Of a stretch of DNA of 59,954 nt, positions 34,157-53,444 are shown one piece after another (the stretch's first letter is position 1; every line of letters begins with the position of its first letter). The notes under the pieces are model-generated. The model was given only the letters and a program-made list of their open reading frames with translations. It made no database searches and had not been told where the DNA came from. Made by a program: the position numbers and the translations under genes. The DNA is from Trichococcus palustris (GTDB lineage Bacteria; Bacillota; Bacilli; Lactobacillales; Aerococcaceae), in the NCBI RefSeq assembly GCF_900114465.1, contig NZ_FOTD01000018.1:1-59954 (forward strand), given 5' to 3'.

Positions 34157-35170
34157 TTATTTGTTAGATGATTCTGGAAGTTTGATGCTTGCAGGATCGA
34201 TTCCCAAAGCTTTCGCAAATTCTTCGTTCACCACTAAATTTAATGTTGTAGGGTATTCCACCGGGATTTCGGAAGGGGATTTGCCGTCTTGCAAGATTTG
34301 CAATGCCATTTTACCCGTTTGACGGCCTAATTCTTTGAAGTCGATTCCGTATGTTGCCAATCCCCCGCCATCAACCATTTCCGTTGAACCAGGGATTACC
34401 GGAATTTTAGCTTCCATAGCGATTTTCCCGACGGTTGCCATCGTGCTGGCCAATGTGTTGTCTGTAGGGATGTAGATGGCATCGACTTTTTGCACAAGCG
34501 ATTCCATCACTTGTTGCACATCGTTTGTGGAAGTGACGGTCATGACTTCAACATTCACACCTTTAGCTTCCAACAATTGTTTCGCTTGGTCCCCCTGCAA
34601 GACAGAGTTCATTTCACTTGAATTGTAGATGATGCCGACTGTTTTGGCGTTTGCTGCGACGGATAGCAACAGATCGATCTGTTCTTTCAGCGGGCCTTGG
34701 TCGCTTGTACCGGTGATGTTCGCACCCGGTTTTTCAGCACTTTCAACCAATCCGGCATCTATCGGATCCGTAACGGCAGTGAAGAGGACAGGGTTTTCTT
34801 TTTCCGCGTTTGCAACCGCTTGTGAAGCCGGTGTAGAGATGGATAGGATGATGTCGTTATTGCCTGCCAAACGTTCCGCCATGCTCTGCAGATTTGCTTG
34901 ATCACCTTGGGCATTTTGATAATCGACGATCAGATTATCCCCTTCGACATAACCAGCCTCTTTCAATACTTCAAGGAAACCGATTCTTGCTGCTGAAAGA
35001 GATTCATGTTCCATAATTTGGAGAATCCCTATTTTTACCGCATCCTTTGAAGCGGTCATACTTTCTTCAGAAGAAGCCGTTTCTCCACCGTTTCCACACG
35101 CCGCCAATACTAATGCTGAGGATAATGCCACTGCTGCCGCCATTTTCTTTTTCCAATTCATCTTCATCAT
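34157..35170 (-). CDS. trpX: TrpX/YtsA-like ABC substrate-binding lipoprotein
   Basis: A 337-residue lipoprotein. The signal peptide ends in a lipobox (LVLAAC, Cys at about 25). The mature part is the ABC_sub_bind fold (KIGILQIMEHESLSAARIGF, then ILSISTPASQAVANA, PVLFTAVTDPIDAGLV and the C-terminal YPTTLNLVVNEEFA). Relatives include the tryptophan/aromatic binding protein TrpX. It is an orphan: no permease or ATPase gene is adjacent and a terminator follows it. A 300-nt leader upstream carries a Phe-rich peptide and an attenuator, which suggests phenylalanine or another aromatic amino acid as ligand. GGGGGAAATAAA precedes the ATG. Confidence 0.85.
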   Translation of the reverse strand: MMKMNWKKKMAAAVALSSALVLAACGNGGETASSEESMTASKDAVKIGILQIMEHESLSAARIGFLEVLKEAGYVEGDNLIVDYQNAQGDQANLQSMAERLAGNNDIILSISTPASQAVANAEKENPVLFTAVTDPIDAGLVESAEKPGANITGTSDQGPLKEQIDLLLSVAANAKTVGIIYNSSEMNSVLQGDQAKQLLEAKGVNVEVMTVTSTNDVQQVMESLVQKVDAIYIPTDNTLASTMATVGKIAMEAKIPVIPGSTEMVDGGGLATYGIDFKELGRQTGKMALQILQDGKSPSEIPVEYPTTLNLVVNEEFAKALGIDPASIKLPESSNK

Positions 35171-35250
35171 TTTATTTCCCCCTATAATTTGTTTTTTTTT
35201 TTTGAGTGTGAGAATCCCCTATACAATCCAACATTCCCGTTTCCCAACAG

Positions 35251-35434
35251 AAAAGCCCATTTAGATTCTTCAATCTAAATGGGCTTCTTATGTATAAGTT
35301 AATGAAAACTCAACGCACCACTTAGATTTTTCATCTATGTGGCCATTCACGTCACGTGAAAATGCTTTAGCCTTCATAGATACAAACAAATACATGTTCA
35401 TTGTTTGTATCCATGTTTGACATGTCTACAAACA
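35251..35434 (-). promoter_or_regulatory. Multi-hairpin attenuator before trpX
   Basis: On the minus strand six segments pair in an alternating chain: 0 (35434-35427) with 1 (35409-35402), 8 bp; 1 with 2 (35415-35401 with 35389-35375), 15 bp with one G-U; 2 with 3 (35381-35375 with 35339-35333), 7 bp; 3 with 4 (35342-35333 with 35327-35318), 9 of 10; 4 with 5 (35328-35318 with 35282-35272), 11 bp with one G-U; 5 with 6 (35285-35272 with 35267-35254), a perfect 14-bp terminator followed by T. Masking segment 0 predicts termination; leaving it free predicts read-through. Confidence 0.75.
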
Positions 35435-35497
35435 GCATCTAAAGAAGCTAAAGTCGAAGCTATTTATGTGATTGTGAATGTTTCTTTGAGTTTGCAT
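35426..35497 (-). CDS. Phe-rich leader peptide upstream of trpX
   Basis: A 23-residue open frame (MQTQRNIHNHINS followed by FDFSFFRCCL) starting at ATG 35497, with GAGGG 6 nt upstream. Codons 14-19 contain four Phe codons (TTC, TTT, TTC, TTT). It lies between a consensus promoter and a terminator, the classic place of an attenuator leader such as pheL. Its last codons form pairing segment 0 of the hairpin chain. Confidence 0.75.
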   Translation of the reverse strand: MQTQRNIHNHINSFDFSFFRCCL

Positions 35498-35532
35498 AAG
35501 TATCCCTCGCACTTGTTTTATTTGATGACATC

Positions 35533-35561
35533 AGTTTATAAAAATTAAATAAGAATGTCAA
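35533..35561 (-). promoter_or_regulatory. Promoter of the trpX leader
   Basis: Minus strand TTGACA (35561-35556), 17-bp spacer, TAAACT (35538-35533). Confidence 0.8.
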
Positions 35562-35631
35562 GAGAATAATTAAAATCCCCTGAGTTTTTGATATTATCCA
35601 TTCCTTGAACCTTTTCCGGTTGATGGCTTGC

Positions 35632-36207
35632 TCAGGCAATGATCAATGTATGGGTTGTCGGCTTCAGCAACTGGAAAACCCTTTTTGGATCGGCTTTTTG
35701 ATCCAGATAAAGTGCTTCGTCTTCCGGATCCAATATCACCGGCATGCGGTCGTGGATGGCCGCCATCTGCTCATTTGCAGCGGTCGTGATGATGGAGAAA
35801 CGCGTGAACGCCTCACCGTTCTCATCTTGGTAGGTTTTTAAAATGCCGGCCATCGAAAAAATCGGAATATCCCCTATCCAAATCTTACGTTTGATTTTTT
35901 CCTTTCCCGACTTCTCCCATTCAAAAAATGAGGTTGCCGGGACGAGGCATCGGCTGCTGAGGAAGGGTTGCCGGAAGGTCAGTTTTTCCAAAATCGTCTC
36001 CGCACGGGCATTGATCAGCGGGCGGCTGGCAAAAGGCTCCACAAAACCCCATTTCTGATAGACCAACTCATTTCCGGGCAGGATGATCGGCGACTCGTTG
36101 GTCGGAAAAATCTCTTCCCTGCCTACGAATCCTTCATCCATCTCACCCAACAGATACCTTTCCCATAAATCCTTCCTCGATGCTTCCAAAGCGTACCTTC
36201 CGCACAT
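35632..36207 (-). CDS. yedK: SRAP/HMCES-family abasic-site DNA-protein crosslinker
   Basis: A 191-residue YedK-type protein. It begins MCGRYAL, so Cys2 becomes the catalytic N-terminus that bonds covalently to abasic sites in single-stranded DNA. The other active-site elements are present: NARAET (about 67-72, Asn), ATSFFEWE (Glu) and AAIHDRMPVIL (about 149-159, His). Its role is to shield abasic sites from strand breakage. The start has AAAGGGGAATTTG upstream. It is transcribed alone from the minus strand. Confidence 0.92.
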   Translation of the reverse strand: MCGRYALEASRKDLWERYLLGEMDEGFVGREEIFPTNESPIILPGNELVYQKWGFVEPFASRPLINARAETILEKLTFRQPFLSSRCLVPATSFFEWEKSGKEKIKRKIWIGDIPIFSMAGILKTYQDENGEAFTRFSIITTAANEQMAAIHDRMPVILDPEDEALYLDQKADPKRVFQLLKPTTHTLIIA

Positions 36208-53138: not shown

Positions 53139-53162
53139 ACATCTACAAACATCACAGTGAAA

Positions 53163-53444
53163 AGAAAAGTACGGATAAAGGAACTGCACAGAGAACCTCG
53201 GTAGCTGAAAAGAGGACAGGAAGCGTATCCGGAAAATGGTCTTAGAGTGAATAAGTTGCGAACGTTATAAAAACCTCAGCAGCTTACGGGAACACCCGTT
53301 ATCGTGTCACAGTATAACAAAACAGCCGTTTCGTTTTGCGTACTGGTCGAGGGGAAATTTGAGAGGATTTCCTGAAACAAGGTGGTATCACGATGAGCAA
53401 TCATTCGTCCTTGCACAATTCATTGTGCAGGGACGTTTTTTTTT
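53163..53444 (+). promoter_or_regulatory. T-box riboswitch, methionine type
   Basis: Stem I begins with AGTA and CGGATA, which pairs with TATCCG (53227-53232). The specifier loop then reads GAAA-ATG, placing ATG (Met) at 53237-53239. The conserved T-box AAGGTGGTATCACG is at 53379-53392. The terminator CGTCC..GGACG (53406-53435) with nine T follows. Uncharged tRNA-Met would stabilise the antiterminator and turn on the gene below. Confidence 0.92.

Follow-up and report, generated by a model that had tools for sequence, protein, structure and literature searches.

In Trichococcus palustris, the minus strand of contig NZ_FOTD01000018.1 (positions 1 to 59,954, the whole stretch analysed here and hereafter called the window) carries a promoter, a leader peptide rich in phenylalanine (Phe) codons, a chain of mutually exclusive helices (the relay) and an intrinsic terminator upstream of a gene for a PF04392 binding protein. 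This leader is very probably a ribosome-mediated transcription attenuator and a member of a family in which the sensor codons have been exchanged. Its parts and helices, the codon bias and the match between codon class and downstream gene class are documented by sequence and by comparison with homologous loci.

From these features we infer translation of the leader peptide, stalling of the ribosome, an order of folding and an effect on expression. When Phe-tRNA is short, a ribosome would stall on the Phe codons and cover this sensor stretch while the first segment of the relay remains free (segments a, b, c, d5, d3 and the terminator arms T5 and T3; Table 1). Segment a would then pair with b and c with d5, and d3 would be freed to pair with T5, allowing read-through into the binding-protein gene. 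A ribosome that reaches the stop codon would instead cover a, leading to b:c, d5:d3 and T5:T3 and thereby to termination. With no ribosome on the leader, the sensor stretch could pair with c alongside a:b, followed by d5:d3 and T5:T3, and transcription would likewise terminate. Across the family, the relay may be short, with the d hairpin itself serving as terminator, or long, with a second, similar hairpin added and the polarity kept, and the sensor codons appear exchanged between Phe/tyrosine (Tyr), tryptophan (Trp) and isoleucine/leucine (Ile/Leu), with single histidine (His) and Leu cases.

The leader and its alternative helices

An earlier note on this DNA, made from the letters alone, had described the promoter, the ribosome-binding site, a 23-codon peptide with Phe at four of codons 14 to 19 and seven segments (0 to 6) in which each neighbouring pair is complementary, and the sequence bears out all of these. 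The peptide MQTQRNIHNHINSFDFSFFRCCL has Phe at codons 14, 16, 18 and 19 and no Tyr among its sensor codons, and the neighbouring segments a, b, c, d5, d3, T5 and T3 are complementary pair by pair. At least four Phe within six codons would be expected by chance with a probability of 6e-5 per position, with Phe assumed at 4.5%. The terminator, given earlier as 14 bp, has 15 pairs, and the list of segments, sound in itself, had overlooked one helix, to which the Phe codons contribute 35453-35447 and 35441-35437 and segment c the respective partners 35371-35365 and 35381-35377. In alignment, this Phe-codon:c helix is also present in the consensus structure of Rfam family RF02863. Taken alone the promoter is weak, with six sites matching 10 of 12 consensus positions in the scanned region versus 4.4 expected; the promoter stretch, at positions 10-60 of the sequence used as query, is retained within the genus, as seen by DNA search and at homologous loci. 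Folding of 35530-35230 yields an energy 7.8 standard deviations below that of dinucleotide shuffles (0/100 as low).

Covariance model R1 was built from 21 elements and its matches were counted at E <= 0.001, and model R2, comprising the core alone, was applied at E <= 0.01. From 226 loci (11 without a match; individual loci are numbered L001 onwards), 223 separate matches and 190 distinct elements were obtained, 168 of which passed a length filter and 131 a redundancy filter, and 62 divergent cores were hand-chosen for alignment. In these cores, helix a:b is paired in 99.8% of cells, with two-sided changes in 6/7 pairs, values that none of 500 shuffles reached by any measure. Helix b:c is paired in 89.7% of cells (8/13 pairs with two-sided changes), c:d5 in 93.9% (3/7 pairs, with a covariation score unmatched by 500 shuffles) and d5:d3 in 93.0% (5/9 pairs), and sliding the partners by one to three columns leaves only 7-62% of cells paired. 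Changes in segment a are accompanied by changes in c, both being partners of b. The comparison of homologous leaders proposed in the earlier note thus finds the alternative helices kept, mostly with compensatory changes. Together with the shuffle score of the window leader, the helices kept in the 62 cores led us to reject chance structure. A terminator-like hairpin follows within 140 nucleotides (nt) of d3 in 170/174 elements, and d3 is a better match for the 5' arm of its own terminator than for those of other loci in 152/170 and than for shuffled arms in 157/170.

Sensor codons

Sorted by script on their C-terminal residues, 162 of the 190 elements encode Phe/Tyr, 18 Ile/Leu, six Trp and four other leaders, with typical ends ..FYFSYFR for Phe/Tyr leaders and WQSWHR for Trp relatives. 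An upstream open reading frame (uORF) with a start codon and a Shine-Dalgarno-like motif was called in 181/190 elements by a caller that favours such starts (L104 and L174 are miscalls). Codons were counted in 131 of the 162 Phe/Tyr leaders, selected with a pattern that constrains residues, not codons, at positions -5 to -1. Position -7 is Phe or Tyr in 116/131 leaders (TTT 46, TAT 46, TTC 12, TAC 12) and position -6 in 124, with free codon choice at both, as aminoacyl-tRNA sensing predicts. Codons are nearly fixed at serine -4 (AGC, 113/115), arginine -1 (AGA, 119/124) and Phe -2 (TTT, 118/119), as pairing with segment c predicts. Phe as the sensed amino acid, the earlier proposal, is the best-supported reading for the window, where every sensor codon is Phe, and has to be widened to Phe or Tyr for the family. 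Pairing of the sensor stretch changes along with the codons: its own segment c is a better partner than that of other classes in 148/148 Phe/Tyr, 17/18 Ile/Leu and 4/6 Trp elements.

Residues -11 to -8 of Phe/Tyr leaders are recurrently Gln-Leu-Asn-Asn (QLNN) with varied Leu codons, a motif that is not found in the window peptide.

Downstream genes

A gene lies on the same strand behind 186/190 elements, mostly an amino-acid gene. Among the 162 Phe/Tyr leaders, the first downstream gene encodes a PF04392 binding protein in 106 cases, its permease in one (L142), AroE in 21, 3-deoxy-D-arabino-heptulosonate 7-phosphate (DAHP) synthase in 12, PheA in five, an aminotransferase in four, AroC in one and other proteins in eight, and four leaders have no gene within their stretch. 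Behind the 18 Ile/Leu leaders are nine Peripla_BP_6 proteins, three IlvE, two IlvA, two IlvB, one oligopeptide-type binding protein and one misassigned case (L162), and all six Trp leaders precede a PF04392 protein. For AroE, DAHP synthase, PheA, Peripla_BP_6, IlvE, IlvA and IlvB, the identity of one representative was checked, and the aminotransferase, AroC and oligopeptide-type labels were assigned by eye. In 181 of the 190 elements (the four 'other' leaders, four without a gene and L162 left out), branched-chain genes lie behind 16/17 Ile/Leu leaders versus 0/164 others (Fisher 5e-22, relatedness ignored).

A similar correspondence is found within the binding proteins themselves. A FastTree phylogeny of 150 PF04392 proteins (permeases L142 and L271 and the duplicate locus L224/L233 excluded), with labels taken from the leaders and topology from the proteins, separates those behind Phe/Tyr leaders (106) from those behind Trp leaders (44) in 150/150 cases, with one label change and a support of 99. 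Six Trp labels (L264, L265, L270, L273, L277 and L278) were given by likeness to L235, and without these rows the split is 144/144. On the TrpX equivalog model NF041285 (cut-off 390 bits), two of two Trp-leader proteins score above (424.9 and 469.6) and four of four Phe/Tyr-leader proteins below (337.8-352.1); the window protein scores 349.8 bits. As the earlier note had it, the window gene is an orphan, a PF04392 protein with no permease beside it, and its position in the Phe/Tyr-leader clade suggests that it binds or carries Phe.

Behind the Trp leaders L179 and L258, the products of the first genes are 627 and 630 residues long and look like a binding protein fused to a further part. Four loci (L087, L088, L154 and L207) contain two tandem elements about 1.3 kb apart, the first gene of each being a binding protein or an open frame; it seems that each paralogous gene here has a leader to itself.

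Folding under ribosome masks and evidence weighing against attenuation

The leader was folded at equilibrium with the ribosome represented as a mask. In the window, c:d5 switches as suggested in the earlier note, with a probability of 0.60 for a stall at the first Phe codon versus 0.0004 for a ribosome at the stop codon. Over the set, changes in the proposed direction prevail: stalling raises d3:T5 in 78 elements and lowers it in 16 (n=151, T5 included), and lowers d5:d3 in 66 and raises it in one (n=154, cut at d3).

Several observations weigh against the proposed attenuator. Within folding, d3:T5 of the window is not switched by the masks (0.81 stalled versus 0.80 at the stop codon), the window leader cut at d3 keeps d5:d3 at 0.80 when stalled, the set as a whole shifts only slightly, stalling at the last sensor codon gives a result close to the stop state, and the five Trp members show no c:d5 at all when cut at d3. 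In the alignment, the 21 b:c cells with two-sided changes are equalled by slid versions (20 at +2, 21 at +3), and the number of two-sided changes in c:d5 is reached by 63/500 shuffles. A clear Shine-Dalgarno motif is missing from six leaders of genus g24 and L124, and the Fisher test on codon and gene class takes no account of kinship. Finally, the element is absent from 8/13 genomes of the genus, two of these eight being only 51% and 63% complete.

These eight loci (L012, L019, L020, L021, L023, L024, L028 and L030) retain a promoter, a short ORF and a terminator and have lost the relay. Homologues without the Phe codons, which had been named beforehand as counting against the proposal, therefore exist, and since the relay is missing from the same 8/13 genomes, codons and helices were lost together. 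In six of the eight, the ORF ends in PQSHHQ with its stop codon against the terminator 5' arm, and the ORFs of L030 and L012 run on. At the PQSHHQ loci, the terminator might be kept from forming by the very ribosome that terminates translation.

As equilibrium folding shows only part of the switch, the order of folding during transcription would have to supply the rest. The polarity assigned in the earlier note is nonetheless the best-supported reading, given that codons, stop position and helices persist and that the genes fit the codons; it does not follow from equilibrium folding of the window alone.

Distribution

The long relay, previously thought unusual, belongs to a common element. Model R1 finds it in 255/395 genomes and 62/80 genera of the order (Lactobacillales), in 48/75 genomes of the window's family, in 20/61 of one family of the order, in 27/299 genomes of the class (five of them outside the order) and in 30/33 genomes of one family outside the order. 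With R2, 60/75 genomes and 21/21 genera of the window's family have a match. A DNA search gave matches in 33/60 relatives, some to promoter or terminator parts only. Moreover, a pattern scan of named genomes returned at least 117 stretches. A profile of the element recognises at least 110 of them, among which no fewer than two (L286 and L331) are probably chance matches. Among the matches listed are Enterococcus, Vagococcus, Tetragenococcus, Isobaculum, Alkalibacterium, Atopococcus and Aliicoccus, as well as leaders ending in YYFSYYS (Clostridium paraputrificum), FFFSLFS (C. tertium) and YYFSYFR (Terrisporobacter mayombei).

Trp-type relatives and published RNA families

Forty-two further places (40 from R2, two from Rfam family RF04312, the trpB motif) comprise 32 with a called Trp uORF, six uncalled that resemble L235, one Tyr (L255), one Leu (L275) and two without a uORF. 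Two places precede a gene for tryptophan synthase beta (L254 by TIGR00263, L245 by eye). Locus L275 (G014:C43:2422-2545), a weak R2 match (E 0.004), has a Leu-rich uORF, MFNTLLLQLNILLLNSDLYFSNL, before leuA.

RF04312 matches 12/250 genomes of the class (seven above the cut-off) at 14 places, 11 of which have a Trp uORF just upstream, eight with two Trp (e.g., WQNWRR); the others are a His uORF (L234), a Phe/Tyr leader (L236) and one place without a uORF (L238). In the phylum, 4/348 genomes have four matches, two of them weak and without a uORF (L281 and L282). At L234 (G426:C19:14519-14626), a His-rich uORF (..FHHHHRFKGL) is followed by a core that matches RF04312 and, weakly, R2; the downstream gene is hisZ-like (218 bits, below the cut-off of 272), and R2 finds a match in 1/5 genomes of the family to which this genome belongs.

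The genome of the window itself contains a Trp-type relative, L235 (C6:215200-215307; RF04312 51.3 bits, below cut-off), with the uORF MRKFTCVSKPNRFDWQSRVE. Downstream are a protein above the TrpX cut-off (424.9 bits) and a permease-like gene. In this genome, therefore, the orphan binding protein seems to stand behind a Phe leader and the one accompanied by a permease behind a Trp leader, and it is our guess that the two binding proteins share this one permease.

Three published RNAs appear to be members of the family: the RF04312 trpB motif, the gbs2033/gbs1262 'riboswitches' and RF02863 sRNA_2410. The available text on the trpB motif presents it as a strong riboswitch candidate with more than 900 representatives, attenuation not being excluded by its authors (PMC11109978). 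The window scores 33.5 bits against this model (segments b to d3), below the cut-off of 59. Unlike the long relay of the window, the d hairpin of the trpB motif locus L233 itself bears a U run, and c:d5 would thus be the antiterminator there. RF02863 matches the window at 35451-35266 (56.5 bits, E 1.2e-8), below a cut-off of 61 that 6/20 homologous loci pass. It describes the same element, its consensus beginning inside the FSYFR codons, but is annotated as a small RNA (sRNA), and its model omits most of the uORF.

According to the section of PMC4448216 on these leaders, gbs2033 and gbs1262 of Streptococcus agalactiae (270 and 195 nt) precede two paralogous ABC transporter operons, each yield by RNA-seq two transcripts, one short and one long, that share a start, and were called new riboswitches; that section does not mention a uORF. 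It also places a gbs2033-type leader before Enterococcus faecium aroFBC-tyrA and a gbs1262-type leader before a tryptophan synthase gene of Fusobacterium nucleatum (PMC4448216). Gene context suggests that these leaders are of the Phe/Tyr and Trp types. One Phe/Tyr element, L011, spans about 262 nt from promoter to U run.

Alternative explanations

An aptamer riboswitch that directly binds an aromatic amino acid or a precursor, with the ORF incidental, is the proposal in the published accounts, as far as available, of gbs2033/gbs1262 (PMC4448216) and of the trpB motif (PMC11109978), and it would agree with the strong sequence conservation of the core. We regard it as very unlikely, as one core is common to all three classes (Phe/Tyr, Ile/Leu and Trp) and it is the uORF codons that follow the downstream genes, position -7 stays Phe or Tyr with free codon choice, and conservation falls on bases that can pair with two or three different partners. 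It is equally improbable that the nascent peptide, through QLNN and the FSYFR end, arrests the ribosome in response to a free amino acid or drug in the manner of TnaC. Aromatic residues are freely interchanged and replaced by Ile/Leu or Trp in other members, serine, arginine and one Phe are frozen at the codon level as RNA pairing predicts, and QLNN, which with its varied Leu codons before the aromatic run may be kept as a peptide, is absent from the window.

A trans-acting sRNA, following the annotation of RF02863, is extremely unlikely; sRNA_2410 was found as two transcripts by RNA-seq and Northern blot, according to the part of PMC5593968 that describes it, but a terminated leader would itself resemble an sRNA, and the same-strand genes behind 186/190 elements are mostly amino-acid genes. 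A T-box leader, reported in the text available for Trp on S. suis trpXYZ (PMC9382623), has next to no chance of being the correct identity and was rejected, since RF00230 finds nothing in 35150-35640 with E values of up to 10 admitted, although the T-box at 53148-53415 in the same window was detected.

Features of the window

The coordinates of the attenuator and its gene are compiled in Table 1. On the 3' side of the PF04392 gene lie a terminator and then leuA (33671-32115, minus strand) with its own leader (34026-33672, minus strand; z -5.4), which comprises a promoter (TTGACA/TAAAAT) and two hairpins, the first GC-rich and the second bearing a U run. Its 24-codon ORF MKNSDGKPMDGIVHASLSYKGLLL (33934-33860) has Leu as the last three sense codons, and this leader is probably a separate Leu attenuator. 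The T-box at 53148-53415 lies on the plus strand (94.1 bits); away from the present leader, the genome thus also uses T-boxes.

Table 1. Features of the proposed attenuator and its downstream gene in the window; numbers in brackets are the segment labels of the earlier note.
Feature	Position	Strand	Details
Promoter	35533..35561	-	TTGACA 35561-35556, 17-nt spacer, TAAACT 35538-35533; consensus scan 10/12
Ribosome-binding site GAGGG	35504..35508	-	From sequence
Leader peptide ORF, 23 codons, MQTQRNIHNHINSFDFSFFRCCL	35426..35497	-	From sequence; homologous ..FSYFR end across the order
Sensor stretch, Phe codons 14, 16, 18, 19	35437..35458	-	Bases also pair with segment c
Segment a (0)	35421..35433	-	Pairs with b; would lie under a ribosome at the stop codon
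Segment b (1)	35401..35415	-	Partner of a or c
Segment c (2)	35364..35390	-	Partner of sensor stretch, b or d5
Segment d5 (3)	35333..35344	-	Partner of c or d3
Segment d3 (4)	35318..35328	-	Partner of d5 or of the terminator 5' arm (putative antiterminator)
Intrinsic terminator (5, 6)	35251..35286	-	T5 35286-35272, T3 35267-35253, 15 pairs, U run; inverted repeat 35253-35286 when read on the plus strand
Putatively regulated gene, PF04392 binding protein	34157..35170	-	Phe/Tyr-leader clade; adjoining permease absent

Significance

Leader-peptide attenuation is often viewed as uncommon in Firmicutes, arising afresh for each operon. Naville and Gautheret, in the part of their study available here, likewise describe it as rare in this phylum (PMC2965389). 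An open-access literature search, in which most papers were left unopened, found none that reads the present family as leader-peptide attenuators. We consider it likely that ribosome-read attenuators of this kind form a single modular class in Firmicutes, homologous throughout, in which a single relay core is combined with exchanged sensor codons (Phe/Tyr, Trp, Ile/Leu and probably Leu and His) and compensating changes, and in which the relay has been lengthened by a copy of the terminator hairpin. The common descent of these codon classes, which we infer, would give the T-box a ribosome-read counterpart and mean that the trpB motif, gbs2033/gbs1262 and sRNA_2410 have to be reclassified. If true, an exchange of codons can alter specificity with the RNA machinery left in place, which would explain the control of aromatic, tryptophan and branched-chain genes in many lactic acid bacteria. 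Furthermore, it would offer a clue to the substrate of a clade of unassigned PF04392 binding proteins and account for an orphan riboswitch candidate from the literature, the trpB motif.

Comparison with known systems

The trp, pheA, his and leu operons of enterobacteria are under ribosome-mediated attenuation. The relevant part of PMC9413887 gives a general description of such attenuators. The element described here would follow the same logic for the stalled, terminating and absent ribosome and likewise combines a short ORF rich in codons for the pathway's amino acid, alternative helices and an intrinsic terminator. Unlike the enterobacterial attenuators, it appears to serve several amino acids with one related core through codon exchange, has a longer relay, occurs in Firmicutes and has a binding protein as its main target. 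The His-leader attenuators of Firmicutes also act by leader-peptide attenuation before his genes, hisZ included, and in the corresponding parts of PMC9413887 and PMC2965389 they are described group by group, with no relation to the present core reported; L234 hints at one. T-box leaders, too, offer one scaffold with exchangeable amino-acid specificity, but there the RNA binds uncharged tRNA, whereas the element of the window is proposed to be read by the ribosome.
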